Origin: an uncultured Clostridia bacterium
Lineage (GTDB): Bacteria > Bacillota > Clostridia > Christensenellales > Borkfalkiaceae
Length of the DNA: 64,000 nt
NCBI GenBank assembly: GCA_947597925.1
Contig: CANQFA010000003.1
Location: 1-64,000, forward strand
Direction: 5' to 3'
A model generated the notes under the pieces. That model saw only the letters and a list, made by a program, of their open reading frames with translations, had not been told where the DNA came from and searched no databases. Every line of letters starts with the position of its first letter. Positions within the stretch are counted from its first letter, which is position 1. The translations under genes and the position numbers were made by a program. Positions 30,127-45,662 of this stretch are shown here, in pieces.

Positions 30127-30567
30127 TTATATTTCCTTACCGACCTCCAAATCTTTTAGAGTCTTTCCGTTTTTTGTTTTCCACTCGATCCTGCCGTTCG
30201 CATTTCTGCCCATGACCATCGCCGCCGCAAGTGAAGGGCTCGTAAAAATATGATCTTTTGTAAACACATGGGAATCATCAATGACATTTTGTGCAATCAA
30301 TTTATTGCGTAGCTTTACTATACTCGGAGATATACTTGCAGAGACGGGATCCGCCACAACAGAGCCCTTCAGAACAGCAAGCCCATCTGAGACACTCACC
30401 CCAGTCCCAGAAGCCCCTCTCGCGGCATGGATGTAGAAACGCTCATCCGGATGTTTAGCATTCAAATGCTCTTCGACGCCGTCAAATACTTTATATCCGA
30501 GCGAATTCACCAAAAGCTTGGAATTATCGATGAACTCCTCTACAAAAGAATTCTGTTCGCCTTTGTG
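30127..30567 (-). pseudogene. DUF4357-domain fragment, in frame after the stop of the upstream gene
   Basis: 146 codons that look coding right from the TAA at 30568-30570. The part from LLVNSLGYKVF to AAAMVMGRNANGRIEWK, then GKTLKDLEVG, is a DUF4357 domain, normally the C-terminal part of GIY-YIG or related proteins of 250-300 residues. No GIY-YIG part is present. The only starts are weak (TTG at 30513, GTG at 30510), with GGAG poorly placed. It is either the tail of a larger protein broken by a nonsense change or a fragment expressed by reinitiation. Confidence 0.65.
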
Positions 30568-31317
30568 TTATGCATAATCGTTATTTTTTCGGAAGGTCAT
30601 GCAGAGAAGGACGTCAAGATAGGCGCCCTCTTCGTCCTTGCGGGCACGCCACTTCTCTATCTCTACATACGGGATCTGGTAGCTCACCCCTGTGTAAAAG
30701 ATGTAAGATTCTCCGCCGCATTCAAACTCCACGCCTTGGGAGTATTTCCCCTCGACGATTCTGAAATCTATCGGCCCGGTGGGCATTCCGCCACTTAAAC
30801 GGAGCCGAAGGGGGAAGGTCGCCGACTTGCCCTCCTTCCTCGGGAGTTCATCTTCCGGCGGCTCAAAGTGGCCGACCGTGTGCGGCGTGAGTTCGATCTC
30901 GAACATGCCGTCCTCATTGATATCCATCGTGCGGAAGATCTCCCGTTTGACGGGTATGAGTTTATAACAGTTGGCATAAATCTCGGGAGGATCTGCTTTT
31001 TCCCCGTTCATGTGCTTCCAAATCTCCCTTTCATCGGCATAACAACTAAACCAAACTCCCGCGAGATATTCGTTCCACACGCGCTTGAGATGGCATGCTC
31101 CGAGCTTTTTCGCGCATTCGGGGGAAATTTCGTCATGAAACCCGATCAGCGCATACTGGGTCTCTTTATCGTTACAGAAAAATTTAGCGCCGTCGCAGAT
31201 CTGAATGGTCTTCCACGGGTCGAGGCTGTAATCCGCGGGTCGAAGATCGAGTTTTGCGCGCAAATTCGTGCAATACTCCGAAATAGCGTTTTGCATTGCC
31301 TTTGTGATTTTTGCCAT
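30568..31317 (-). CDS. Unknown protein, 249 residues
   Basis: I do not recognise this family. It is soluble, with no signal peptide, and begins MAKITKAMQNAISEYC; the middle holds PPEIYANCYKLIPVKREIF and the C-terminal part is rich in beta-strand-like residues (SYIFYTGVSYQIPYVEIEKW). AAGGAGAAATATCAC precedes the ATG. It lies 21 bases after the 474-residue LRR gene as part of the leftward unit starting near 37.5 kb. The reading frame runs straight on after its TAA into a DUF4357 domain, so the intact ancestor may have been about 396 residues. Confidence 0.65.
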   Translation of the reverse strand: MAKITKAMQNAISEYCTNLRAKLDLRPADYSLDPWKTIQICDGAKFFCNDKETQYALIGFHDEISPECAKKLGACHLKRVWNEYLAGVWFSCYADEREIWKHMNGEKADPPEIYANCYKLIPVKREIFRTMDINEDGMFEIELTPHTVGHFEPPEDELPRKEGKSATFPLRLRLSGGMPTGPIDFRIVEGKYSQGVEFECGGESYIFYTGVSYQIPYVEIEKWRARKDEEGAYLDVLLCMTFRKNNDYA

Positions 31318-31338
31318 GTGATATTTCTCCTTTGTTTT

Positions 31339-32766
31339 TTATTTGATTTCTACATGCACGGCGAAGGGATTTTTGGAACTGCCGAGGAACTGCTTGCCCT
31401 CTCTTTTGTTGCAACGGAGTTTATTGTCTCCCCAAAAGACATCTTCGCCCAAATCGGGATCGCCTTCGATACAGACATTCTCGAGATTTATGCAAGATCG
31501 GAATGTCCCGGCACCGATCTCCACAATGCTTTCCGGAAGGACAACGTTTTTGAGAGACGCGCAACCATCAAACGCCCTCGGCGGAAGCCAATTGTCATCG
31601 CCCTCTTCCACGACGAGATCGGTAACAAGGGAGCAAGCGAATTGTTCTTCCGTCCCCTCTTCAAATCGAACATTTGCGGGAATGAACAACTCCGTAAGAT
31701 ACGTCCCGTAAAATGCTCCGGACAGGATCCAAAACTTGCCCTTGGGGAAGACTACCCGCTGAAGTCCGGAGTCTCTGAACGCATCTTCTCCGATGGCATC
31801 AAGGTTGTCCGAAAAGACGATCTCATCCAGCCATTTTGCACGTTCGAACGCACCCGCGCCAATGAGCACGACGCGTTTCCCCGCCACCATGTCCGGAATG
31901 ACAATCTTATTTTTGTGTTTTGTCACACCGACTACACTTAGCTCCTCCGCCTTTTCGACAGAGACAGAGGGCTTCCCCTCCTTAATCGCCGGTCCATACA
32001 GGATACCATTCTCCTCGATATAATTTGCGCTATCATAAATGACGCAACCGGCGAGAGAAAAACAATTTATATCCCAGTCTGAGCGCCGTCTCTTCTCTTT
32101 GACGAGTACCATAGTACCCCGTAAAAAGGCAAATTTTCCAATCGTCTTGATGCCCTGCGGGAGACGGATCACACACAAATCATCACTGCCGAAAGCCTCT
32201 TTCGCGATCTCTTCCGGAACGCCCTCAAAAATCACTTCCTCTAACTTGGAGGAATAGAACGCTCTCTCGCCGATCCGATAGACGCTCTTCGGTATGGCCA
32301 CAGAGCGGACCGGATGATCCCATGTCCCCCACGTCACATTCTTGCCGATCTCCCCTACGCCATCGGGAATACGGATGCGCTCGTCCATCCCTTTGTACTT
32401 CATAAGTACGCCGCCGCGGATGACAAAATCATCGGGGTTGCATACGAATTCCTTCTGTGGGGCCTCGAGCTCTTCTTCGACGGGAAGATCCCGCTCGGCG
32501 AGCACGCTATCGACCGTCTGTCGTACGAAGTCGTAATCGACAATATGTTCCCCAAGATCGACCGTCTCTTCGGGGCACGACTTTTTTGGCAGCGTCGTCT
32601 TGCATTCCACGACGGGAAAATCCTGAATATCGAGCCAATCGATCGCTTTTGAAACAACGCCGAGCTTTCCGCCCGCGATGACGGCGTTGCCCACCGCAAG
32701 CGGAATTTCAGAATTGAAGTACGCCTGCGTATTGTCATCAAATTTTACAAGTACCGCACATTTCAT
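31339..32766 (-). CDS. Leucine-rich-repeat protein (BspA type) with N-terminal small barrel domain
   Basis: 475 residues from ATG at 32766. The first ~60 residues (CAVLVKFDDNTQAYFNSEIP, then VGNAVIAGGKLGVVS) look like a small beta-barrel that also occurs at the C-terminus of the 908-residue protein of this unit. BspA-type LRR_5 repeats follow, with units such as IRIPDGVGEIGKNV, IRLPQGIKTIGKFAF and VVLPESIVEIGAGTF. There is no signal peptide or anchor, so it is probably cytoplasmic, unlike most BspA proteins. A TTG at 32778 is an alternative start but overlaps the previous gene. Confidence 0.75.
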   Translation of the reverse strand: MKCAVLVKFDDNTQAYFNSEIPLAVGNAVIAGGKLGVVSKAIDWLDIQDFPVVECKTTLPKKSCPEETVDLGEHIVDYDFVRQTVDSVLAERDLPVEEELEAPQKEFVCNPDDFVIRGGVLMKYKGMDERIRIPDGVGEIGKNVTWGTWDHPVRSVAIPKSVYRIGERAFYSSKLEEVIFEGVPEEIAKEAFGSDDLCVIRLPQGIKTIGKFAFLRGTMVLVKEKRRRSDWDINCFSLAGCVIYDSANYIEENGILYGPAIKEGKPSVSVEKAEELSVVGVTKHKNKIVIPDMVAGKRVVLIGAGAFERAKWLDEIVFSDNLDAIGEDAFRDSGLQRVVFPKGKFWILSGAFYGTYLTELFIPANVRFEEGTEEQFACSLVTDLVVEEGDDNWLPPRAFDGCASLKNVVLPESIVEIGAGTFRSCINLENVCIEGDPDLGEDVFWGDNKLRCNKREGKQFLGSSKNPFAVHVEIK

Positions 32767-32774
32767 CTCTTGCC

Positions 32775-34712
32775 TCAACCGAGTAATTTTTTCGAGACGA
32801 TCTCGCGGAGTTCGTCATCCGGGATGTGTCTGAGATGTTCGCGCTTTTCGTATTCGGACAAAGATTGTCCGAACGAATTGCGTTTTGAATTGATCTCTCT
32901 GACATACTCGTCTTCGAGCGCTTCAGCAAGGTCGGGGAACTTCTTCCACACCTCTGCAAAGAGCTCTCCTTCGCAACTCACGCCCGCTCCGATCGCGAGG
33001 AGATGTTCGGCAAACGCTCTCGACTTTTTGGTGATCAGCGAGAGATCGCTCCAGATGACCTCAATGCGCTCCTTTGTCCCCCACTCCTTCCACACGCGCT
33101 CGACTTTGCGCAAGGGTTTATCAATGCGGCGGAAGAATTCCTTCGGCTCGATCTCATAAGCCGCCGCCCCGACGACAAATTCTTCATCCGCAAAGAGGGC
33201 GACGTCGAGCTCGTCGAAGCTGCGGCGGACATCATATGAGTTTTGGCGCGTGTTGTGCTCCAGAATGCGATAAATATTTTCACGGGGCTTCAGCGCTTCC
33301 GGAACGGCGGGAAGCAAGATCCGTACTTTCTCCTGCATCAACGCAAATTCCAGATCGTCTGCGGTTTCATAGTGGAAGAATTTTTCAAAGTCCGAGATAT
33401 GCTTGACAGGTTCGCACATTTTGAGGAAATCCTGACTCTTTTTGAGCGCCGTGGGGAGGACGTCGGAGTGAGAATAGCAAGTGATATGTGCGTAGATATC
33501 TGTCCAGAATGCAAAATCGTCCCTGATTTTTTTGGAGCATGCCCCATGGAATCCGCCCAAAAGTGCACAGGTGGGGTGTGCTTTCAGAAATGCTCGCTTT
33601 TCTTCATCCGTCGGATAAAGGCGCTTAAAGGCATTCAGCCTGACGTCCTTCTGCTCCTTTTTGTTGCTGCTCGCAAGATCGGTCGAATACCAACTTCCCC
33701 CCTTCTCCCGAACGTAAATCTGCTCAACACTATCGAATGCGATCTCATAGAGTTCCCGATCGCTGCTCCATTCGCCCGATAGGAGAATGACCGGCGCATG
33801 GACGAGCGCACGCTTCACGAGCTTACGTTCCGTGCGGAAGATCTCGAAAGACCCGGAGACGATTTGACAGATTTTGCCTTCGATTTTCCATAATGCATCT
33901 TCGATGCTCTTATAATCGATACTGCTTTTCAGGCGCTTTTCGCGGGTCAGCTGTAGATATGCGTTCTTTTTCTCGGCGAGACGATCGGCTTCCGAAAGAA
34001 GATTTTCGACCATGGGGACCTCGGGAGCTTTTTCTTGCCCTTCGTACCATACCGAACGAAAGAATTCGCGCGTCCCCTCTACCGACGAGCTTATGATCTC
34101 CATGACTTTCTCTTCGGACAGGGCACTGAGCTCTTTCATACATTCGAGAATATCCCGCCGCTTCGTATGGATCGCATCATAGACCAAAGACTCCGATTTT
34201 TTGGGAAAGAGACGAAGGTAATCGCACCAAGGCATATTCGGATGCTTTTCGATTGCATTCGTGGGGTACGAATACCAATTGAAAGAGTATCCGTTGTCCT
34301 TCATCGCCTTAATTTTTTTGTAGTCATAAGACAGCTTCCAGGCGTCCATCCGATCACTCACGAACCTGACGAACGAGCTTGTAGTGCACCCGTAGTAATC
34401 GGTATACGTGAGCGGAAACCGATGCTCTTTTTGAAAGAAGCCCCCGTCGTAAATCTTACGGATGCGCTCCATGATGGCGGGGACGCCGACGTCGTCCTTT
34501 TGAAATACTTCAAGCGGAAGGCTGTCGAGGTATTTCATGAGCGCCACAGCGGCATAACCCGCCTTCTCATAGTCGCAGCCTTCTCCCTCGAGTCCCGTCA
34601 TGATGTCCATGCACTCTGAGAGCGCAACGACACCCTCCACCGTTTTGAGTTCGGGAATGTCGAGTTTCTTATTTCTGCACGCTTCGCGCACAAGTCTCAT
34701 CAAATCTGCCAT
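32775..34712 (-). CDS. Large unknown protein, 645 residues
   Basis: From ATG at 34712 (AAGGAGAGAATATA upstream) the protein has 645 residues and no signal peptide or membrane segment. It is mostly helical and charged. I recognise no catalytic motif; features are repeated Trp/Tyr-rich stretches (GYSFNWYSYPTNAI, VWYEGQEKAPE, GGSWYSTDLASS) and a C-terminal part ending with LRHIPDDELREIVSKKLLG. It lies between the two LRR genes (16 bases after the first) and probably works with them. Base composition is lower in GC than the housekeeping flanks, suggesting transfer. Confidence 0.7.
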   Translation of the reverse strand: MADLMRLVREACRNKKLDIPELKTVEGVVALSECMDIMTGLEGEGCDYEKAGYAAVALMKYLDSLPLEVFQKDDVGVPAIMERIRKIYDGGFFQKEHRFPLTYTDYYGCTTSSFVRFVSDRMDAWKLSYDYKKIKAMKDNGYSFNWYSYPTNAIEKHPNMPWCDYLRLFPKKSESLVYDAIHTKRRDILECMKELSALSEEKVMEIISSSVEGTREFFRSVWYEGQEKAPEVPMVENLLSEADRLAEKKNAYLQLTREKRLKSSIDYKSIEDALWKIEGKICQIVSGSFEIFRTERKLVKRALVHAPVILLSGEWSSDRELYEIAFDSVEQIYVREKGGSWYSTDLASSNKKEQKDVRLNAFKRLYPTDEEKRAFLKAHPTCALLGGFHGACSKKIRDDFAFWTDIYAHITCYSHSDVLPTALKKSQDFLKMCEPVKHISDFEKFFHYETADDLEFALMQEKVRILLPAVPEALKPRENIYRILEHNTRQNSYDVRRSFDELDVALFADEEFVVGAAAYEIEPKEFFRRIDKPLRKVERVWKEWGTKERIEVIWSDLSLITKKSRAFAEHLLAIGAGVSCEGELFAEVWKKFPDLAEALEDEYVREINSKRNSFGQSLSEYEKREHLRHIPDDELREIVSKKLLG

Positions 34713-34728
34713 TATATTCTCTCCTTTT

Positions 34729-37455
34729 TTAACGAATAACTTCCGTGACTTTGTTTGTGTTACTGCGGTTTGTCCAGCAGCCTTCATCGACCTGCACGAC
34801 GGTACCGACTTGCCCTGCGTAAGGCCCGGTTACCCGCACTTGGTCTCCGATTTGCACTGCAAAATCACAGTTAAAACGATTTTTCCTGTTATTGGGAAGC
34901 TTTACCGTAAGCGCGTGGAATTTCACCTTGGCGAGAAAAGAATCGGGTTCCGCTTCGCAGAACACCTCTTTCAAGATCGATTTTTCGGGCATGATGGACT
35001 TCCACTGCGCACGGGTGCCGCGGTAGCGGATGGGCGAAACGAGTTTTTCGGCATCGTAGAAAGAATTATGCGCTACTTGTTTTAGGGTCGACGGGAAGTT
35101 GATCGATGTAATATCGGTATTGCCGAAGGCATATTTCCCGATCGTTTCCACGCCCTCGGGAAGTTGGATATCTCCCAACTTTCGCGCGCCCATAAACGCA
35201 CACCGCCCGATCGTAACGACCCCTTCGGGGACGGGAGCGGCAGCGCCGAAGAGCAAGGTTTTCCCGTCTGCAGTGAGGATATTCTTCCCGACTTGCTTCA
35301 AATAGGGATTGTTGGGCGAAAGCGTGATCCTGACCGTTCTGTTCAATTCCGAAAGGTCATCCTCGGACATGGGTAGCCCCGATCCGATCTCCAGCTTCTT
35401 CATCTTACTGTAAAATACCAATGCGCCTTTGTCGACACGGGTCACGTTGTCGGAAATGACGACCCGCTTTGCCTCTTTCGCATTGTCGAATGCTCCTCCC
35501 GAAATGCTCCTGCATTCGGGATGAAGGAGTATTTCCTCAAGCGTCGGGTCGCTGACGCCCATCAAAGACAAATAGGGATGCTCCGAACAGCCGAGATAGA
35601 TGCAGCCGTCCTTTTCGTTGAAGTCGGGAAGTTTGGCCGCGGAAAATGCCCCCTTCTCGAATACGGTATCCCCGTGTATGACGATGGATTTAACATGAGC
35701 CTTCCCCCCAAAGGCATTTCTGCTCACCCTCTCTACGCTTTCGGGGAGATCGATCTCGTCGAAGTCACCCTCAAAAGCCCACTCGCCGATGGATTTGACG
35801 TCGGATGAAACTTGCACGCGTTTCTCCGTTCCGTTGTAGCGCACAAGGACGCCGTCCGAAATTTCAAACGGGTCCTTCCGTTCCTCGATGAGTTCAACCT
35901 CTATGCCCTGTTGCCGCATTTTCCACAGCGAAATTCCGAAAATGAAGTAAAACTCCTCACACAGAGCCGACGGGAAAACGATACGCTTCAATGCCGTGCA
36001 ACCGCAAAAGGCATCCGAGCCGATTCCCCATCTGTTCTTGCGTCCTATCTCCGCGGGAAGCACGAGTTCCTTCAAAGAGCTGCATCCCTCGAATGCGCGG
36101 TCGCCGATGCTGTACAATTCTGCGGAGAAAGTGATCTCTTTCAAATCCGCGCAGCCCTGAAAGGCAACGGCGCCGACCGCCGTTACGCTCTTGGGAATAT
36201 CTATCTTTGTAAGCCCTTCGCACCCATCGAATGCCCGCATGCCGATTTTTATCACGCTGCCGTCCGATGGAATGACACTGTTGCGGCAACCGCGGATAAG
36301 TTCCCGCGTTTGCGTTTTGATGAGACAATTTTGGGAGGCGTGATATACGGGGTTGCCCTCTTCCACCGTGATTTCTTCCAGCCCACCGCACCCCGCAAAT
36401 GCGTCCGTGCCTATCTCGGTGACGGACTTTGAAAGGTGCAACCGCTTTAAGCTTTTGCAGCTGTTGAATGCATACGCATCCATGCTCATCAGCGAAGAAG
36501 GAAGATCAATCTCCGCGAGATCTTCGCATTCGCTGAACGCACTGTTACCTATCTTTGTGATGCCGTGCGGCAAAACGACGCGCCTCAAACTTTTGCAGGA
36601 ATGAAAAACCGACTGCGCAATTTCCGTTACGCCCTCGGGGAGCACAATCTCTTCCAGCGCCTCGCACGAATGGAATGCGCCATTCTCGACGGAAACGACG
36701 CCCTCGGGGAGCGTGACGCTCTTCAGACTTTTGCACATATTGAACAAATCTTTCGCAATGACTTTCAGTCCTTTCGGAAGAGAGATTGTTTCAAGCGCAG
36801 CGCACAAGTAGAACGCATTCTCTCCGATAGATACAAGCCCCTCGGGAAGGATAACCTCTTTGACTGCGGTATTCATCGCATATCTCCCTATCGCGGTTAC
36901 GCCCTCGGGAATGGTAATACGTTCGGTATCGGGACCGGAACGCAGCGCAAAGTCTCCTATCTCGGTTACGCTTCCATCCAACGGAATCCTGAAATTCTTT
37001 GCGACGGCGAGCAATTTTTTCGTGCCTGTCTCGATAAGGCAATTATCTACGGAGCGATAGTTCTTGTTTCGGGGGCCCACCGAAATTTCTTCAAGCGACC
37101 AGGCTCTTCCGAACACTCCCATCCCAATCTTCGTCACGCCCTCGGAAATGGTTACGCGGGTAAGCGCATAGCAATTGAAAAATGCATGGTCCGCAATGGT
37201 TTTCACGCTGTCCGGAATCGTAATCTTTGTCAACGCAGGGCAAGACCAAAAAGCATGCCGCAAAATTTTTTTCACGCTGCCCGGAATCACAACTTCCTTC
37301 GCGAAGCGATTAAATTCGAACGCCCCTTCGCCTATCTCGGTCACGCCCTCTGGAATTATGACAGTCTCGCTTTCACTGTTGCACTTTACAAGCGTAATGC
37401 CTTTTGCCGTGCTTTGAATCTCGAACTCTTTCGAGTCGTATTGTATCGCCATCAT
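34729..37455 (-). CDS. Giant BspA-type leucine-rich-repeat protein with C-terminal KOW-like barrel
   Basis: 908 residues. Nearly the whole protein is LRR_5 repeats of about 23 residues with the unit I-x-I-P-x-x-V-x-x-I-G-x-x-A-F (for example VVIPGSVKKILRHAF, ITIPEGVTAIGRYAM). The last ~65 residues (VKFHALTVKLP, FNCDFAVQIGDQVRV, GQVGTVVQV) form a KOW/SH3-like small barrel. No signal peptide, so it is probably an intracellular binding scaffold. GGAGAAG lies just before the ATG pair at 37455/37452. First gene of the leftward unit controlled from 37511-37567. Confidence 0.82.
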   Translation of the reverse strand: MMAIQYDSKEFEIQSTAKGITLVKCNSESETVIIPEGVTEIGEGAFEFNRFAKEVVIPGSVKKILRHAFWSCPALTKITIPDSVKTIADHAFFNCYALTRVTISEGVTKIGMGVFGRAWSLEEISVGPRNKNYRSVDNCLIETGTKKLLAVAKNFRIPLDGSVTEIGDFALRSGPDTERITIPEGVTAIGRYAMNTAVKEVILPEGLVSIGENAFYLCAALETISLPKGLKVIAKDLFNMCKSLKSVTLPEGVVSVENGAFHSCEALEEIVLPEGVTEIAQSVFHSCKSLRRVVLPHGITKIGNSAFSECEDLAEIDLPSSLMSMDAYAFNSCKSLKRLHLSKSVTEIGTDAFAGCGGLEEITVEEGNPVYHASQNCLIKTQTRELIRGCRNSVIPSDGSVIKIGMRAFDGCEGLTKIDIPKSVTAVGAVAFQGCADLKEITFSAELYSIGDRAFEGCSSLKELVLPAEIGRKNRWGIGSDAFCGCTALKRIVFPSALCEEFYFIFGISLWKMRQQGIEVELIEERKDPFEISDGVLVRYNGTEKRVQVSSDVKSIGEWAFEGDFDEIDLPESVERVSRNAFGGKAHVKSIVIHGDTVFEKGAFSAAKLPDFNEKDGCIYLGCSEHPYLSLMGVSDPTLEEILLHPECRSISGGAFDNAKEAKRVVISDNVTRVDKGALVFYSKMKKLEIGSGLPMSEDDLSELNRTVRITLSPNNPYLKQVGKNILTADGKTLLFGAAAPVPEGVVTIGRCAFMGARKLGDIQLPEGVETIGKYAFGNTDITSINFPSTLKQVAHNSFYDAEKLVSPIRYRGTRAQWKSIMPEKSILKEVFCEAEPDSFLAKVKFHALTVKLPNNRKNRFNCDFAVQIGDQVRVTGPYAGQVGTVVQVDEGCWTNRSNTNKVTEVIR

Positions 37456-37510
37456 CTTCTCCGTCTTAAAATTATGTAAATCAAATTGCGCCTTTCAGCG
37501 TATTTTTTTC

Positions 37511-37567
37511 ATCATACCATATCTCACGGACCTGCGGTGTGTCAAAAAGGGGTGCGCAAGAAAAATT
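37511..37567 (-). promoter_or_regulatory. Promoter region of the leftward LRR unit with a 28-bp shared element
   Basis: Minus strand: the 28-bp element at 37540-37567 (core CTTGCGCACCCCTTTTTGAC) ends in TTGACA; TATGAT (37511-37516) lies 23 bases further. The identical 28 bases occur at 38368-38395 in front of the rightward unit. The -35/-10 spacing is too long for a plain sigma-A promoter, which suggests a bound activator. Confidence 0.65.
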
Positions 37568-37624
37568 ATATGTTCAGATTATATCACAATCCGACGGGCG
37601 ATTCAACCCCTATCCGAAAAATTC

Positions 37625-37653
37625 TTGCTTTTCGCGCGCGTGTGTGATATACT
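37625..37653 (+). promoter_or_regulatory. Promoter of the WYL-type regulator gene
   Basis: TTGCTT (37625-37630), 17-base spacer, TATACT (37648-37653), 31 bases before the start at 37685. With the divergent LRR promoter it explains the gap 37456-37684. Confidence 0.75.
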
Positions 37654-37684
37654 TCAATATAGAATTTACACGCGAGGCAAAGCA

Positions 37685-38356
37685 ATGACGGAGCAAAAGA
37701 AGCGCGGAAGGTCAAAAGAGATCGCCTTAGAACTTCTGAAGGTCCTTGAAGAAAATACGGACAAAAATCATCTTTTGAGCAAAGAGCAAATCATTCAAAA
37801 GCACCTCAATCAATACCGTACAGATAATGAAGAAAAAGGGATCCAAGAGAAGACCTTCTATGTCAAAATAGACGAGATCGAAGCTGCAGGCTTCCCCATC
37901 AAGCGCACCAAGGGAAAAACGACGCGGTACTACCTCGACGAAGACCGCCTTACGGAGGAAGAACTTCTCTTCCTCGCCTGCATGATCAAGAGCAGTCCCG
38001 ACCTCGGCGAAGAGGAGGCCGAAGTGCTCTCGAAAAAACTTCTTTCAATTCGCGCCCATAAAAAGGCGAAGGAGTATGTCAAACAGCACAGTTTCATCGT
38101 AAAGGAGCGGCATAACCCCGTATCCAAACAGATCCACTATCTTGCCGTGCTTCTCGAAGCCAAGAGAAGAGCGGGAAAGGTTTCCTGTAAAATCGTTCTC
38201 TCCCGCGAAGGCGGATACAAATTTTCGGAAAGGCTCACTATCTATCCGCGCCAGATCGATTTTACGCGAAAGGGCATTCTTGTATCCTTCGACCACAACG
38301 GCGTCACGAAATACGATGTTCCCCTCCGCGACCTCATCGACATTGAACCCGAATAA
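37685..38356 (+). CDS. WYL-type helix-turn-helix transcriptional regulator
   Basis: 223 residues from ATG at 37685 (GAGG upstream). The N-terminal ~75 residues are a winged helix (RSKEIALELLKVLEEN..., then KTFYVKIDEIEAAGFPIKRT and TRYYLDEDRLTEEEL), the rest resembles a compact WYL domain (KERHNPVSKQIHYLAVLLEA, RLTIYPRQIDFTRKGILVSF, ending YDVPLRDLIDIEP). WYL regulators often control defence islands, DNA-damage or stress genes by sensing ligands or nucleic acid. It sits between two divergent units that carry the same 28-bp promoter element, so it is the likely regulator of both. The assignment rests on overall pattern, not on a sharp motif. Confidence 0.75.
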   Translation: MTEQKKRGRSKEIALELLKVLEENTDKNHLLSKEQIIQKHLNQYRTDNEEKGIQEKTFYVKIDEIEAAGFPIKRTKGKTTRYYLDEDRLTEEELLFLACMIKSSPDLGEEEAEVLSKKLLSIRAHKKAKEYVKQHSFIVKERHNPVSKQIHYLAVLLEAKRRAGKVSCKIVLSREGGYKFSERLTIYPRQIDFTRKGILVSFDHNGVTKYDVPLRDLIDIEPE

Positions 38357-38367
38357 AAATTTTCAGG

Positions 38368-38423
38368 AATTTTTCTTGCGCACCCCTTTTTGACAGTGAA
38401 GGGGTGTTTTTTTGTGGTATGAT
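38368..38423 (+). promoter_or_regulatory. Promoter region of the rightward unit with the same 28-bp element
   Basis: The 28 bases at 38368-38395 are identical to 37540-37567 (opposite strand). TTGACA ends the element (38390-38395) and TATGAT lies 22 bases on (38418-38423), 34 bases before the next gene. Confidence 0.65.
38381..38413 (+). terminator. Terminator of the regulator gene, overlapping the next promoter
   Basis: CACCCCTT (38381-38388) and AAGGGGTG (38399-38406) form an 8-bp stem followed by seven T. The TTGACA of the downstream promoter lies in the loop region. The other copy of the 28-bp element lacks the 3' arm, so termination cannot be the only reason the element is conserved. 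Confidence 0.65.
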
Positions 38424-38456
38424 AGAGGCACAACAAAGCCAAAGGAGATTTGAAAC

Positions 38457-39200
38457 ATGAAAAACATCACAAGCGCAAAAGAACTCGGAAACCGCATTGC
38501 AGAAAAGCTCGGCCTTTCCTTCGAGGCAAAGACTTATAGCGACCTCGCAAAGTTCATCGAAGAAATCGTCCCCGCCATCGATGAGGAATTTGTAGGCGGA
38601 AGGTCCTCCTTCGATGACTTCCGGATCCCCTTCAACGACGACAGCCCCGTCCCTTTCTGGCAGATCATCGCCGATAAGAAGACGATTCGCTGCATCATGG
38701 AGAAGTTCGGCCACAAGGATGCGTTCGGCGACATCACCTACTTTGCCGATGATTACAACACGGAGAGCGGGGACCTCGACGATATGCCCGAGGAGGGCAA
38801 GGTCATCGCGGACATCGAGCCCTACGGCAGCGCCGCGGATGTCCTCGAGTGGCTCCAAGACTTTTCCGAAGAACACAGCCTGTCGTTCTCCTTCATGCTA
38901 TACAATCTGTATCCGCTTTACGAATACTTCACGAAGCGCTTCGGCAATGACGCCAACGAGATCGTCTGGCGCATCGACGGCGGAAAGATCTCTACAGACG
39001 GACAGGAAGTCGTCGTGACCGACGATGCAGAAGGGGATCTGCTCCTCGTCCAGTGCTGGTGGCTGAGCAGCCTCGAGCCCGAGAAAATGGAAAAGTACGG
39101 ACTTCGCGTCGCACTTGAAATTGCGGACGATGCCCCGAAATCGTGGAAGATGCTCGACTGCGGTATCAGCACCGGCCTTCGCATCAAATACGGCAAATAA
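38457..39200 (+). CDS. Unknown acidic protein, 247 residues
   Basis: Not recognised. A soluble, acidic protein beginning MKNITSAKELGNRIAEKLG, with stretches PFWQIIADKKTIRCIMEKFG and LLLVQCWWLSSLEPEKMEKYG. No signal peptide, membrane segment or catalytic motif is evident. AAGGAGATTTGAAAC precedes the ATG. First gene of the rightward unit, directly behind the shared 28-bp promoter element, with a DUF4116-like gene 10 bases downstream. Confidence 0.7.
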   Translation: MKNITSAKELGNRIAEKLGLSFEAKTYSDLAKFIEEIVPAIDEEFVGGRSSFDDFRIPFNDDSPVPFWQIIADKKTIRCIMEKFGHKDAFGDITYFADDYNTESGDLDDMPEEGKVIADIEPYGSAADVLEWLQDFSEEHSLSFSFMLYNLYPLYEYFTKRFGNDANEIVWRIDGGKISTDGQEVVVTDDAEGDLLLVQCWWLSSLEPEKMEKYGLRVALEIADDAPKSWKMLDCGISTGLRIKYGK

Positions 39201-39210
39201 GAGGGATTTT

Positions 39211-40152
39211 ATGAAAGCCATCGAAAAGAAAGAGGCAATCGGCCTCATCAAAAAGGCCCCCATCGTCTACCGCTATCTTCCCGAAGGGCTGCAAAAGGAC
39301 CGAGACGTCGCCATTGCCTTCATCAAGAGCAATACCCCGTATGTCGACGCCTATTACGAGGCGGTGATGGAAGGAAAGCGGACATCATCAGAGACGCGTG
39401 AATGCAAAACATCCTCCGTAATGCGCACCGACAATGCCGACCTCTTCCGTAACGGGATCCCCACGCACTATCCGAAAATTCTCGGCGATTTCACAAAGGA
39501 CGCGGAAATCATGGCCCTTCTCGGCGCCACAAGAATGCACGAGGTCATAGACTTCACCGATGAAAACTATGACGAGAGAGTTGTCTCCAAGGCAATCGGG
39601 AAGGGCCCCTTCCTCGTCGGTCCCCTCTTCGAATATTGGTACGATCGCCTCGCCCGAGACAAAAAGACGGGCGATTACATTCGCACGAAATATGAACTGA
39701 CGACGGACGATTCCCTCTTTATCGTGACGGCATTCAAGTGTCTCGAAGTCATTGACACGGGCACGGGAAGTCACGACGACGCCTACGCCGCCCTCTTCAT
39801 GAAGTGCAACTCCTTCCGCTCTGAGGCATTCTACGGCAATGAGAACGACAACGTTTCGGCGGGCTACGTCTCCTTCTTTCTCGATTACCGCAAGGAAGCG
39901 GCGCGCATCTTCCGTGTGTTCCCCGTCGAAAAACAAAACGAGTTGGCGGGCCGGTATCACTTCCTTGCCGGACTGATGAAGCCCGACGGCCTCAATCCTG
40001 AACTTGCGGAGATCATCGCCAAAAATTGCCCGATCGCGCGGCAGATCCTGCCCGACGAATATATCCTGCGCTACGACCTGAAACGCGACCCCGAGCACAG
40101 TGATTGCACCAAATGCGAAAAATGCTCTTTCCGCCACATTCTGATCGTGTGA
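39211..40152 (+). CDS. DUF4116-like protein with C-terminal cysteine cluster
   Basis: 313 residues from ATG at 39211 (GAGGGATTTT upstream). The N-terminal part (AIGLIKKAPIVYRYLPEGLQ, then KDRDVAIAFIKSNTP) follows the pattern of DUF4116 repeats. The middle is unknown. The C-terminus carries CTKCEKCSFRH, a C-x2-C-x2-C group that could bind metal. Soluble, no signal. It belongs to the rightward unit after the 28-bp element. I cannot assign a reaction. Confidence 0.7.
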   Translation: MKAIEKKEAIGLIKKAPIVYRYLPEGLQKDRDVAIAFIKSNTPYVDAYYEAVMEGKRTSSETRECKTSSVMRTDNADLFRNGIPTHYPKILGDFTKDAEIMALLGATRMHEVIDFTDENYDERVVSKAIGKGPFLVGPLFEYWYDRLARDKKTGDYIRTKYELTTDDSLFIVTAFKCLEVIDTGTGSHDDAYAALFMKCNSFRSEAFYGNENDNVSAGYVSFFLDYRKEAARIFRVFPVEKQNELAGRYHFLAGLMKPDGLNPELAEIIAKNCPIARQILPDEYILRYDLKRDPEHSDCTKCEKCSFRHILIV

Positions 40153-40211
40153 TCTCGGACATGGTACCCACAAATTCTATCAAAGTATAAAAATTAAAGG
40201 AGAAAATAATT

Positions 40212-40907
40212 ATGGCTATTACACATCACGGAATCGAGCTCGACCTCGAAAACAACATCTATTGGCTCCAGGAAGACAAATTGGAAAAACTTCCGAAAGA
40301 AGAACTTTCCCAATTCAGCGTAGGGCAAAAGCTCGATGTCCGCGAACTTCTACAGCGCGGTTACGCCTCAAATCTCTCAGATATCTATTTCGGATTCGCA
40401 ATGGAAGTGTTCGACTGCGAAGATGATGAACTGGAAGACGTTTTGAACGGCGTACTGGAAACGACCGTCACCGGCATAGCGAGAACAACCGTTCAAATTG
40501 AATATTTCCGCTATGAAAAATGTTCAAAACGACTCATTAGCGTCGAGGGAAGCGGGCAGACGAATGGATATATGGCCGCGATGCCTTCCGGCGTCCTATG
40601 GGATGTCAATTGCTTCTTCCGCGATACCTTCGTCTTGAAAGGAGCAGCGCGCGAACTTGTCAAGGAAAAGGACTTCTGTGTTCGATATAAACCGAATATC
40701 GATGCCGAGAGCCTTACCATTTGGATCGGCTCCATGGACTTGCATTTTGATTATGACAATGATATGGCCGATCATTATTGGAACGTCGATGTGTTGGGCT
40801 TGGAAATCGAAGAAAAAGACGACTGCACGATCGTAAAAGTCGACCTCAGAGCATTCGTCTGCGCTGCGGGGCTCAACAAATCGGACGGATACAACCCGTA
40901 CGATTAA
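40212..40907 (+). CDS. Unknown protein, 231 residues
   Basis: Not recognised. An acidic soluble protein beginning MAITHHGIELDLENNIYWLQ; the C-terminal half (SLTIWIGSMDLHFDYDNDMA) is rich in predicted strands. AAAGGAGAAAATAATT precedes the ATG, a strong site. Third and last gene of the rightward unit, 59 bases after the DUF4116-like gene. Lower in GC than the genome average of the window. Confidence 0.68.
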   Translation: MAITHHGIELDLENNIYWLQEDKLEKLPKEELSQFSVGQKLDVRELLQRGYASNLSDIYFGFAMEVFDCEDDELEDVLNGVLETTVTGIARTTVQIEYFRYEKCSKRLISVEGSGQTNGYMAAMPSGVLWDVNCFFRDTFVLKGAARELVKEKDFCVRYKPNIDAESLTIWIGSMDLHFDYDNDMADHYWNVDVLGLEIEEKDDCTIVKVDLRAFVCAAGLNKSDGYNPYD

Positions 40908-41195: not shown

Positions 41196-42737
41196 TCATT
41201 CGTCGAACTTGCGCAGTTCGATCCCGAGGACGCCGAGGGAGGTTTCCTGCTCGGGTGTGTAGTATTGGTGCATCCATATGACCGCGTCCGTGAGGGGCAT
41301 GTCCGCAAACCCCGCCTTCTCCAGCATGTCGGGCATGGCAAAGAGCTGTGCAAATGTGGGCGCCCTGTGCAGTGCCGTTACCTGTGCGCGGATCCATTCG
41401 ATGCCGTCTTCATTATAAAACAGGATGTCATCCCCCACCTCGATCGCGCTCCGCTTTTCGTCGCACAGGCGCACCTCCACAGTCTTTTTCCCGCTCCGTA
41501 TCTGCTCAAACGGAAGCTCGGCGAGGTGCATCTCCACGGCATCTTTCACACGGACATTGTTTTCATCGATGAATTTGTAGTACTCGTCCGTTATTTGTTG
41601 ATAATAGAGCTTTGCGACGATATCCTTGCCCTCTTCTGCCTGCGTTTCCTCGTCCTCCTCTTCGTGTCCGATCCCCGCAAGGGCGATCCCGTCTCTCGAA
41701 TGGAAGGAGCAAGCATTCTCCTCCGCCTTCGCCGCGGCCGTCTTCAAGACATGGTAGCGGTAGGCGTTCAGAAGGAGGTCCTCCCCGATCTCTCCCTTCA
41801 GAAATGCCGAGAGCGGCAGGAGGGCCCGCTTGTCTTTGGGGACTTTGCGGCACAGCTCAAAATCGAGATAGGGCGCATGCGTATCCCAGATGATGCCCCC
41901 GCTTTGCGTCAGTTCGAAGCCCTCGAGGATCATGTCGCTCACATCGCCGCTGTACCGACGCATTTCCATGATCGATTCCCATCTCTCAAAATCCAGCTCA
42001 CCCCTCTTCCGCTCCGCGCCCGTCTTCTCGCCGCAGTCACGAAATCCGTTTTCGATGAGTTTTTCCAGACCCCATGTGGACATAAACTCCAAAACGAGGA
42101 CCTCTTCTTCGCGCGTATCGGAGGTCCTTTCGCGGATGGGCCGCAGGATATCGCCGCGGCGGAAGGGGGTGGGCAGCGCGATCCAGAACCAGTCAAAGGC
42201 CTCGATATAGACGTCTCCCTTCCCCCATGCGGTGACGGCGAGGATCGTCCCGTCGGGCAGGAGCTCGACCTCTACCCCCTCACATCTGCCGATATATTGC
42301 TTCGAGATGCGGATCTTTACCGCGCACTCTACTTCATTTACCACGCTGAGGCACATTTCGTAAGAGGGATAGAGCATCCCTCGCCCGCCGCCCTCGAACC
42401 AAAATGGCTGCCCGCTCGACCCTACGGTATAGACGTCGTAGGCGTAGGCCGCATCGTGTGAAGGGGTCTTGCACTCCGCGACATACTCCTCCTCCCGCCG
42501 AATGAGCTCCTCTAAAAAATGCGCGAGAGGCTGCGTCGCGAAGTCGCCGTTTCGCTCCTCGAGGATGAACTCGGGATAGCGCGCAATGAGCTCTCGGTAC
42601 GCCGCATGTTTTTCGGAGAGCGAGATATTCCGCGCCTCGTGAATGACATAGGCGGCCTCCTCGGGCGAGAACTCGTAATGGACCTCGCGGAGATACTCCG
42701 CAATGTCCTTGGAATTGAGAAATTTTGTAAAATCCAT
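41196..42737 (-). CDS. ASCH-domain protein with large N-terminal region of unknown function
   Basis: 513 residues from ATG at 42737, supported by AGGAGGTAAT; an in-frame extension to 42902 overlaps the preceding gene and looks non-coding. The last ~110 residues (EMHLAELPFEQIRSGKKTVE, then VGDDILFYN and the end LGVLGIELRKFDE) are an ASCH domain, a PUA-like fold that binds RNA or modified nucleosides. The N-terminal ~380 residues are soluble and I do not recognise them (EFSPEEAAYVIHEARNISLS near the start). Last gene of the four-gene run with two nucleases and a phosphatase; the 98-base gap before it holds no clear promoter. Confidence 0.8.
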   Translation of the reverse strand: MDFTKFLNSKDIAEYLREVHYEFSPEEAAYVIHEARNISLSEKHAAYRELIARYPEFILEERNGDFATQPLAHFLEELIRREEEYVAECKTPSHDAAYAYDVYTVGSSGQPFWFEGGGRGMLYPSYEMCLSVVNEVECAVKIRISKQYIGRCEGVEVELLPDGTILAVTAWGKGDVYIEAFDWFWIALPTPFRRGDILRPIRERTSDTREEEVLVLEFMSTWGLEKLIENGFRDCGEKTGAERKRGELDFERWESIMEMRRYSGDVSDMILEGFELTQSGGIIWDTHAPYLDFELCRKVPKDKRALLPLSAFLKGEIGEDLLLNAYRYHVLKTAAAKAEENACSFHSRDGIALAGIGHEEEDEETQAEEGKDIVAKLYYQQITDEYYKFIDENNVRVKDAVEMHLAELPFEQIRSGKKTVEVRLCDEKRSAIEVGDDILFYNEDGIEWIRAQVTALHRAPTFAQLFAMPDMLEKAGFADMPLTDAVIWMHQYYTPEQETSLGVLGIELRKFDE

Positions 42738-42835
42738 ATTACCTCCTGAATTCGGGTAGTCCCCGTCATTTGATATTTTACGGTCAAAGGCGGTCTCTCT
42801 GCGCATAACGGCGCGCATCAGCTCGGGGGAGACGC

Positions 42836-43516
42836 CTATTTCCCGACATAAAATGTTCTGCAGTCCTCCACGCGAAAACAGCCCAAAACGCCGCTCATCC
42901 ATGCGCCCGTATCGAGGTGAATTTTATGATAGTCGCGGACATGGTCCCCTCGTTTTCCCTCTCGAAGGAAGCGCGTGATCTGCGTGCCGCCGCCCAAGCT
43001 CATGGAAGTCGTGTGTCCGAAAAAGACGCATTTCCCGCCGCGGGGAAGAACGTCGGGATCCTTGAAGACGCGGTCATAGACGAGCTGCTCGGGGGAGGCG
43101 TCCTTGAGCGGTAACATGCACCCCTCCCCGTCAAGCGGAAGACCCGCATGCACACAGATGTAGTCCTCCGCCTCGTAAAAATACGGGAGCGCCTCCATGC
43201 GGTCGACCGTCTCCCAGTCGAGAAGTCCGCCGTCGTCGGGAAAATATCTCCGCAGCTTGTCCAAAACGGAGTCATAGTCGCGCGCATCCCGCATGAGCGT
43301 CCAGTAGTACTTGAGAAAGTCGTACTCATGATTGCCCGCGAGGAGCACGGCATGCTTCATGGAGAAGAGAAGTTTTGTAAGGCGCACGGAATGCTTCCCC
43401 TTCTCGATCATATCCCCGCAGGAGATGAGGATGTCGCCGTCCGAAAAGTTCACCTTCTCCAAAAGTCTGCAAAACAGCTCGTATTCGCCGTGAATGTCGG
43501 AAAGAATGTAGGTCAT
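42836..43516 (-). CDS. PPP-family metallophosphatase
   Basis: 226 residues. The PPP signature motifs are all present: SDIHGE near residue 6, GDMIEKG, GNHE, CVHAGLP and FFGHT, ligands for the two metal ions. Such proteins act on phosphoproteins, dinucleoside tetraphosphates or RNA ends; the substrate is not evident here. Its ATG lies one base after the TAA of the upstream nuclease-like gene, so the two are translationally coupled. Confidence 0.88.
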   Translation of the reverse strand: MTYILSDIHGEYELFCRLLEKVNFSDGDILISCGDMIEKGKHSVRLTKLLFSMKHAVLLAGNHEYDFLKYYWTLMRDARDYDSVLDKLRRYFPDDGGLLDWETVDRMEALPYFYEAEDYICVHAGLPLDGEGCMLPLKDASPEQLVYDRVFKDPDVLPRGGKCVFFGHTTSMSLGGGTQITRFLREGKRGDHVRDYHKIHLDTGAWMSGVLGCFRVEDCRTFYVGK

Positions 43517-44165: not shown

Positions 44166-45662
44166 TTACGAGACGACCCGCTTGAGTTCCTCGTACACCT
44201 TTACCATGGCGTAGGTGTCGAGCGCACAATATTTCAAAAGATTATGCTCTGCCTTTGCGCGTTCCTCCTCGGGCATACCTTTAAGCCGCGGGAAAAGTTC
44301 CATCGCTTCACCGCCGTTATGCACGCCCTCCAAGTTGTGATAGTTGAGCTCGGGATCGTCGGGGAAGAGGGCGGGGAGGACGCTCTTGATGGAAAACGAC
44401 CCACCCATGTCGCGGGTGTAATAGTATCCCTTTTGGAAGGGGACGAGGAGATCTTTCACATTGTCCATGATCCTGAGGAGGTGCTCGGAGAGGTCGGGGA
44501 AGGCCGCCGCGAGCTCTTTGAGACGATTGCATTCAAAAGTCTTATTGAAGACAATGACACGACCGTCCGCGGGGATGTCCGCCACGAGCCCCTCGGCAAG
44601 CGCCCTCCTCGGGTCCTCTTCGGGGCGGCCGAGAAATTCTCTGTGCGCGAGGGTGCCGTCTGTCTGCAGGATATGCAGCGAATATTGCACGGGGATCTGT
44701 TGGTACGGCCTCGTGCCGACATATTGCGGAATGATGGGCTGCACCGACTCGAAATCGAGAAAACAGAGCGGGAAGGAGAGCGTCTTTAAGAATTCTCCGA
44801 TGCCCGCACGGTCGACATAGGCCCCCTTGTCCGCGAGGGCATAGTCCACTTGCATGCGGCGGATGCCGGTCAACTTGACCCCCGCCTTCAGAATGTCCTC
44901 ATAGCTATGGACCCCCCTGTGATACAGCTCGAGCTTCTTCTTGAAAAAACAGCCGTAGAGGTCAAAGACGGACGGCGAGGGCAAATTTCGCGTGCAATAA
45001 CCGAAGAAGGCGCAGGGATAGGGATCTCTGCACGCTTCGGAGAGGTCTACGGCGGGCTCTGTGGGCGCACTCATGACTTTCTCCGCCTCTTTGAGACTTG
45101 TCTCCACCATTTTGAGTTCCTCCTCGACGAGGGGCGTGACTTCGGTGATGCGGAAGAATTTGGAGATGTCGAGCGTGCCGCCGAAGACATAGCTCGTATC
45201 GACGGTGACGAGGAAGATCCTCCTGACCCTGACACCGCATCTTTCGAGGACATATTTCTGATAGGCGGTATCGACGATGTAGACATAGTGGTCGGGCGAG
45301 GTGCTGCTCTTGACCTCGTAGATGTCGTAGCCGTCGCCATTTTTTCGGAGGATATCCACGGCGCAATACAGCCCTTGGTAGTCGAAAGACGCCTCGCAGA
45401 TATTGTCTCTCCCCTCGGCGAGATATTGCTTTGTGAGCTCCTTCATCTTGTCGAGATCGAGCCCGCCGCCCGCCTTATGCGAGGTGACCTCGACAAAGTC
45501 GCCGAAGAGGCCCATCGCGAGGTCGCCCACCTCATTGCCTGCGTCGAAACGCGCCTGCGTCTCGGCATCGATATGATACTCCTCGGGCTTATACTTTTTG
45601 AGCCACGAAATTTTCGGACACTGCCTGAAGTCACAATATTTCGATTTGCTGAAGTAGAACAT
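44166..45662 (-). CDS. DUF2779 protein: Cas4-like nuclease fused to DEDD exonuclease domain
   Basis: 498 residues from ATG at 45662 (GGGGGGAAATT upstream). N-terminal part is Cas4/RecB-like: FSKSKYCDFRQCPKISWL, the active-site pattern AVDILRKNG...YEVKSST (D...E-x-K) and the cluster CRDPYPCAFFGYC, giving Cys ligands for an Fe-S cluster. The C-terminal part is DUF2779, an RNase H-like DEDD domain with FLDFES, VFNKTFECNRLKEL and YCALDTYAMVKVYEEL. It may act as a DNA/RNA exonuclease. First gene of the four-gene run, with its own promoter. Confidence 0.85.
   Translation of the reverse strand: MFYFSKSKYCDFRQCPKISWLKKYKPEEYHIDAETQARFDAGNEVGDLAMGLFGDFVEVTSHKAGGGLDLDKMKELTKQYLAEGRDNICEASFDYQGLYCAVDILRKNGDGYDIYEVKSSTSPDHYVYIVDTAYQKYVLERCGVRVRRIFLVTVDTSYVFGGTLDISKFFRITEVTPLVEEELKMVETSLKEAEKVMSAPTEPAVDLSEACRDPYPCAFFGYCTRNLPSPSVFDLYGCFFKKKLELYHRGVHSYEDILKAGVKLTGIRRMQVDYALADKGAYVDRAGIGEFLKTLSFPLCFLDFESVQPIIPQYVGTRPYQQIPVQYSLHILQTDGTLAHREFLGRPEEDPRRALAEGLVADIPADGRVIVFNKTFECNRLKELAAAFPDLSEHLLRIMDNVKDLLVPFQKGYYYTRDMGGSFSIKSVLPALFPDDPELNYHNLEGVHNGGEAMELFPRLKGMPEEERAKAEHNLLKYCALDTYAMVKVYEELKRVVS

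Follow-up and report, generated by a model that had tools for sequence, protein, structure and literature searches.

The closest described relatives of the system reported here are regulators that carry a WYL domain. In Caulobacter, the WYL activator DriD uses sites that lie at a constant distance from the -10 element, show a conserved G-14 and are positioned at -35, and its gene stands beside a divergent target operon (PMC12340889). The mycobacterial WYL activators PafBC and SiwR, associated with sigma adaptation, also work at the -35/-10 region (PMC10693628), and BrxR, a WYL repressor of defence islands, controls the genes around its own gene through two boxes, R-BOX1 and R-BOX2 (PMC9122601). 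We analyzed a locus resembling these systems in the respects just named, located in a stretch of 64,000 nucleotides from an uncultured Clostridia bacterium (contig CANQFA010000003.1, hereafter the window). In this locus, two copies of a 28-bp element flank the gene of a WYL-like regulator, one copy heading a leftward and the other a rightward group of genes.

Judged by sequence comparison, the 28-bp sequence is very probably the operator of this regulator and the switch for both gene groups. We give a probability of roughly 0.6 to the reading that the regulator binds both elements and activates both units through extended -10 promoters. The control features of the locus are the following:

37540-37567, minus strand: proposed operator, left copy of the 28-bp element; ends in TTGACA and matches 38368-38395 exactly in inverted orientation
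38368-38395, plus strand: right copy of the 28-bp element (proposed operator), whose 3' half doubles as 5' arm and loop of the regulator's terminator
37511-37516, minus strand: left extended -10 (TGG TATGAT), 23 nucleotides past the left element; belongs to P2, the promoter through which the regulator is proposed to control the leftward unit
38418-38423, plus strand: right extended -10 (TGG TATGAT), 22 nucleotides past the right element; belongs to the promoter through which the regulator is proposed to control the rightward unit
37578-37606, minus strand: P1, an ordinary sigma-A-like promoter (TTGAAT-17-TATAAT) that precedes the left element
37685-38356, plus strand: regulator of 223 residues with an N-terminal helix-turn-helix (HTH), a short degenerate WYL-like domain and no WCX; start taken at the first likely ATG
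37625-37653, plus strand: sigma-A-like promoter of the regulator gene (TTGCTT-17-TATACT)
38380-38413, plus strand: hairpin with T run, resembling an intrinsic terminator, downstream of the regulator gene; shares bases with the right element and the right promoter spacer (dG -19.2, z -3.0)

The left and right copies are identical at 28 of 28 bases. When up to three mismatches were allowed, only these two copies were found in the window (0 in 100 shuffles), and a scan of the 1.62-Mb genome for further copies returned the same two. An earlier interpretation of this stretch (the sequence-only reading) had described the identical copies and a TTGACA followed 22-23 bases later by TATGAT; both were confirmed, the gap being 23 nucleotides on the left and 22 on the right. 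Its gene lists for the two units also match the list of open reading frames (ORFs), and the regulator lies between the copies. The search of other genomes that it had proposed revealed three related loci repeating the pairing of gene set and element, namely L015 (genome G025, the uncultured Clostridia metagenome-assembled genome Lapin-014), L028 (G308) and L044 (G332). These and the window are the four loci referred to below, and the two unit heads of each make up the eight sites. In L015 and L028, both copies stand in positions equivalent to those of the window; in L044, the element is present at both units despite a different layout, as CGCTCCCATTTTTGACA-22-TATCAT and CGCTCCCGATTCTGACA-22-TATGAT. 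Gene order is accordingly conserved with the element in L015 and L028, but not in L044. Because the non-divergent units of G332 both keep the element, it is linked to the unit and is no by-product of divergent layout.

The core of the element is CGCACCCCTTTTTGACA, and its distance to the -10 is fixed at 22-23 nucleotides in 8/8 sites. In a scan of six loci, the pattern TGACA-N22-23-TA[TC][GC]AT was found at all eight unit heads and was absent from L027 (G029) and L029 (G030), two further loci with related genes. It gave one off-target match in the window (59706, minus strand), the shuffle expectation being 0.125 per window. Alignment of the left sites of the three closer loci showed an invariant run of 18 columns in the element, a length reached by 1 of 20000 column shuffles. 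On the right, the invariant run of 13 columns is not exceptional, because the entire surrounding region is conserved. Left/right identity stops at the element, with only 7-9 of the 20 nucleotides upstream matching; the conservation common to both sides ends at TGACA, and the -35/-10 spacers differ between the sides.

The distribution of the element was then compared with that of the regulator across 103 genomes of the genus. The strict pattern CCCCTTTTTGACA-N20-25-TAYGAT occurred in three genomes, twice in each and always at the head of one of these units. When the pattern was relaxed but its gap fixed at 22 nucleotides, four genomes matched, at the six of eight sites that have this gap, with no match in the other 99 genomes or in reversed-pattern controls. 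The regulator profile gave four strong matches (E 8e-49 or better; G000, G025, G308 and G332) and eight weak ones (1e-7 to 3e-6), of which the two scanned with Pfam carry WYL. The genomes with the element are exactly the four with strong regulator matches. The proposal of a shared control element tied to the regulator is supported by the same 4/103 genomes, at both unit heads and at the fixed distance. In 61 related genomes searched for the regulator, one strong relative was found (G025, 84% identity). Proteins shared across the four loci are 27-84% identical to those of the window, and among the five products compared between the window and L015 the regulator is the most conserved (84% versus 65-69%).

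Related loci without the element, which the sequence-only reading had named as evidence against it, do exist for single genes (G029 and G030), but these genomes also have no regulator at the profile threshold and no element pattern. With three mismatches allowed, L027 contains one element match, which is at chance level, and L029 none. The element motif was absent from the regulator-bearing stretches L051-L053 of another genus, and no gene of the set was recognised there by eye. In viral contigs, the strict pattern was found in one stretch.

At seven of the eight sites, TGN precedes the -10, making it an extended -10. With a normal spacer of 16-18 nucleotides, no hexamer matches TTGACA at more than 3/6 positions at any of the eight sites, and at the left site of the window at no more than 2/6. 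Extended -10 promoters can dispense with a -35, and the absence of a normal -35 is a usual mark of activated promoters. That the regulator reshapes or replaces the -35 contact, as previously suggested, is possible but not needed: since seven of the eight promoters have an extended -10, TTGACA need not be used as a -35 and may be operator sequence only.

We propose that the regulator would be made from its own ordinary sigma-A promoter and would bind the two copies of the element, each immediately preceding an extended -10 promoter with no normally placed -35. Bound at about -62 to -35, it would aid the start of RNA polymerase, and a signal sensed by its C-terminal domain would switch on both gene sets together. 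In regulators of the DriD and PafBC type, it is single-stranded DNA binding to the WYL domain that brings about activation. On the left, the ordinary second promoter P1 would add some regulator-independent or roadblocked transcription. A P1-like pair (TTG..., 17 nucleotides, TATNAT) was found in 4/4 left sites; from there to the element's end it is about 65 nucleotides, or 78 in G332. Mononucleotide shuffles equalled it in 20, 387, 2 and 23 of 2000 cases (window, L015, L028 and L044, respectively); the pair stands out in three loci, not in L015. The element was assigned to P2 because in G332 it keeps its spacing to the P2 -10 but not to P1. For the regulator gene, the best promoter pairs of the window, L015 and L028 follow TTGCNN-17-TATNNT, with 8, 10 and 9 of 12 positions matched. 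In L044 (9600-9660, minus strand), the regulator begins just past a hairpin that resembles a terminator and belongs to a pilin-like operon upstream, which was named by eye.

By homology, the regulator is WYL-related, a putative short and degenerate HTH-WYL protein. The PADLOC WYL model was matched by all four regulators (best E 1.9e-6); that of the window also matched the PADLOC model DUF3800_VII (1.3e-5) and none of the NCBIfam WYL models. The regulator of L044 is 42-43% identical to the others. A profile of the four regulators retrieved five further proteins over nearly their full length (E 9e-11 to 1e-14), some of another genus. Among the relatives scanned, Pfam WYL was above cut-off in L052, L053 and three weaker ones (L006, L010 and L011), and the full-length relative L053 showed a WCX match just below cut-off. 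Of the other-genus regulators L051-L053, all of them WYL proteins, two have shortened frames. Neither the WYL motif, seen as a YYL-like stretch in full-length relatives, nor their YR segment is retained in the regulator of the window; the position of the sensing arginines was read from the alignment. The earlier label of a WYL-type regulator holds as to homology; the curated models divide (PADLOC 4/4, Pfam 0/4), and the label needs qualifying as to the domain itself, which is degenerate, and as to the absence of WCX. Structure prediction from a two-row alignment (window and L015) gave a mean predicted local distance difference test (pLDDT) score of 47.3, with a best Foldseek E of 0.23.

At the right copy, the element overlaps a predicted terminator. 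In all four loci, the hairpin of this terminator lies directly past the regulator gene and takes its 5' arm and its loop from the element, with the T run at 38407-38413 in the window. The 3' arm occupies the promoter spacer and varies between loci with pairing kept. Hairpin z-values are -3.0, -0.9, -1.2 and -2.2 (window, L015, L028 and L044), and by these the terminator is clear from folding alone in two loci. None of the three left copies folded forms a hairpin, and the fourth has no inverted repeat; a role as terminator alone thus does not account for the element's conservation. A fuller picture, which we hold only tentatively and consider rather doubtful, is that of an undescribed accessory system in which one sequence would serve a short WYL-like activator as operator for a pair of extended -10 promoters and, in one of these, also as the stem of the activator's own terminator. 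If true, operator, terminator and promoter spacer would share about 50 bp, and binding of the activator could in turn affect how its own transcript is ended.

The genes of the two units in the window are the following:

34729-37455, minus strand: 908-residue BspA-type LRR_5 (leucine-rich repeat, LRR) protein with a KOW-like C-terminus below the Pfam cut-off; among the four loci only in the window
32775-34712, minus strand: 645-residue protein, function unknown; heads the unit in L015 and L028
31339-32778, minus strand: 479-residue LRR_5 protein; a related 717-residue protein in L044
30568-31317, minus strand: 249-residue protein, function unknown; homologue in all four loci
30127-30513, minus strand: DUF4357 piece of 128 residues, matching only the C-terminal part of a larger family, the PADLOC candidate PDC-S14
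38457-39200, plus strand: 247-residue protein, function unknown; homologue in all four loci
39211-40152, plus strand: 313-residue DUF4116-like protein, just below the Pfam cut-off; homologue in all four loci
40212-40907, plus strand: 231-residue protein, unknown; no counterpart in five related loci tested

The leftward genes are tightly packed, with gaps of 16, -4, 21 and 54 nucleotides if the 645-residue frame starts at 34712 (the ORF list gives a longer frame from 34787). Among ten proteins, Pfam cut-offs were reached only by LRR (908 and 479 residues), DUF4357 (128 residues) and ASCH (568 residues). The core found in 4/4 loci comprises the regulator and the 247-residue, DUF4116-like and 249-residue proteins, the last being cut by a contig end in G308 (205 residues at 50%). 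The 645-residue type is present in three of the four loci, the 479-residue LRR type in two and the 908-residue LRR protein in one; on this distribution, the LRR genes are optional members. L028, the third full locus, carries both elements, with 645- and 249-type genes on one side, then the regulator, then the 247-type and DUF4116-like genes. Neither LRR gene, nor the 231-residue gene or the DUF4357 piece, is present in the 20.7-kb stretch of L015. In L044, the 247-type and DUF4116-like genes follow the regulator; facing them from about 5 kb away is a separate unit made up of an LRR and a 249-type gene. The DUF4357 piece, which had no counterpart in the five related loci tested, is probably the remnant of a former defence gene.

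A profile of the 645-residue protein was positive in 5 of the 103 genus genomes, including the window's own. Relatives of the 247-residue protein were found in 1 of 391 genomes drawn evenly from the class and 1 of 248 drawn from the order, each time the window's own; G025, G308 and G332 were therefore probably not among the genomes drawn. In the same order draw, 645-type relatives occurred in 2/248 genomes, the window's and G029. The orphan 645-type gene of G029 (L027 5873-8391, minus strand) overlaps a methyladenine glycosylase gene and has no regulator or element; it sits behind a likely toxin-antitoxin pair, named by eye from the sequence. In G030 (L029 4191-5757), an LRR protein that shares 68% identity with the last 430 residues (the C-terminal half) of the 908-residue protein is followed by a short 645-type remnant with one stop. 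Past the rightward unit of the window lies a gene for a DUF2779 protein with a Cas4-like nuclease part (44166-45662, minus strand), whose equivalent in L015 (12702-14282) adjoins that unit. Between the set and this gene, the window encodes a 568-residue protein with a C-terminal ASCH domain (41196-42902, minus strand), with no counterpart in the five related loci tested.

The sequence-only reading had suggested a role in stress or defence. This remains a guess, as no convincing PADLOC match was found among the target proteins, and for the target genes we consider a defence function possible but the less probable case. PADLOC returned no match for the 645-, 249- and 247-residue, DUF4116-like and 908-residue LRR proteins, nor for seven relatives, and a weak PDC-S70 match for the 479-residue LRR protein (E 0.0014). 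Among ten window proteins, only the DUF4357 remnant matched strongly (C-terminal half of PDC-S14). When profiles were searched against PDB sequences, no match better than E 0.1 was obtained for the regulator, 645-residue, DUF4116-like and 249-residue families, and the 247-residue family yielded one designed protein (E 0.008). The predicted structure of the 247-residue protein (two-row alignment, window and L015) had a mean pLDDT of 49.1 and a best Foldseek E of 0.23. A ferredoxin-like order at residues ~68-145, with papillomavirus E2/PII-like matches at E 0.2-1, was of low confidence and was not used as evidence. The four profiles searched against viral contigs found no relatives; plasmids yielded none for the 645-residue protein or the regulator DNA, and phages none for the 247-residue protein. 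The gene set fits an accessory island, because of its patchy presence (4/103), differing neighbours and the toxin-antitoxin-like pair by the orphan 645-type gene of G029.

The operator most likely serves activation rather than repression. In the opposite case, which we judge unlikely, the regulator on the element would block the extended -10 promoters and read-in from P1 until released by a signal such as phage or DNA damage. BrxR is a precedent, being a WYL repressor with boxes before its own gene and the next operon, where a single site can suffice (PMC9122601), and P1-like promoters lie upstream of 4/4 left elements. However, a repressor site needs no register with the P2 -10, which is nevertheless kept in 8/8 sites, in contrast to the spacing from P1. 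An extended -10 can function unaided by an activator, yet all eight promoters lack a normal -35, a usual mark of activated promoters, and no copy of the element was seen on the regulator's own promoter. Several other points weigh against activation by a WYL regulator at these sites. No palindrome with arms of at least 8 lies within the left elements of the four loci (in L028, an arm within the element pairs with another beyond it), and the sites of SiwR and BrxR are palindromic. BrxR, though a WYL protein with two boxes, represses (PMC9122601). On the left, P1 could let an element-bound repressor act as a roadblock, and the left site of the window reads as TTGACA-18-TATGGT, 10/12 as an ordinary promoter. 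As a general promoter this pair was rejected: it is not kept in other left sites, a 4/6 -10 at spacer 16-18 occurring only at the window left and G332 right sites. The regulator promoter has normal 17-nucleotide spacing in three of four loci, with none convincing in L044. Pfam WYL was reached by 0/4 regulators, and in alignment with longer relatives all four end after the WYL-like part, before WCX. The looser pattern was written after the G332 sites were known, and two of the four element-bearing genomes are incomplete (71% and 76%).

The remaining explanations do without this regulator as a DNA-binding switch, or without a switch at all. Both copies lie in transcription sense, the right one forms a hairpin and T run in 4/4 loci, and WYL domains share the Sm fold of RNA-binding proteins (PMC6789036), all of which would suit an RNA element acting as terminator of the regulator message on the right and as P1 leader on the left, bound by the Sm-like WYL domain or another factor. 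We consider this very unlikely, as left copies show no conserved hairpin (three folded, four scanned for inverted repeats), the element has no Rfam match, a fixed -10 distance is meaningless for RNA, and a P1 transcript would start near or within the element. A site for a different genome-wide factor, such as an alternative sigma factor, would explain TTGACA at a fixed -10 distance as a promoter class; with two copies in the window's genome and an occurrence within the genus only in genomes that have this regulator, it is more improbable still. Least probable, and close to negligible, is a recent inverted duplication or gene-conversion tract with no regulatory role, the right copy being just a terminator. 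The 28/28 identity in the window and the place of the right copy in a terminator would agree with it, but the pairs persist in four loci despite the protein divergence given above, the identity ends at the element, the 18-column left run is rare among shuffles, and the units of G332 carry the element although differently placed relative to the regulator.

If activation from both elements is correct, the locus would represent a compact regulon of two promoters under a WYL-like regulator that lacks WCX, and the four loci would each supply a natural operator pair, at differing divergence. The 247-residue, 249-residue, DUF4116-like and usually 645-residue families would be tied into one co-regulated set, making their function approachable. 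Limited literature searches, covering parts of the WYL sources, found no worked-out regulon of a class B (no WCX) regulator and no matching report joining WYL, BspA, LRR and operators; DUF4116 was listed for two papers. Compared with the known systems, the locus differs from each in a particular way. DriD binds both sides of the -35, with poor -35 hexamers (1-2/6) (PMC12340889), whereas here the site lies upstream of the -35, shared conservation stops at TGACA (~-35), and the WYL domain is short, degenerate and without WCX. The PafBC/SiwR site is at about -26, inside the spacer (PMC10693628), whereas the spacers of the left and right sites differ in our loci; unlike PafBC-like class A proteins (HTH-WYL-WCX), the regulators have no WCX in 4/4 loci. 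The boxes of BrxR are 11-bp inverted repeats and serve repression (PMC9122601), whereas here there is no palindrome and the promoters look activator-dependent. Although the WYL part is too degenerate for the Pfam model (0/4), the domain layout is that of class B, the HTH-WYL proteins without WCX that account for 15% of hits (PMC6789036).

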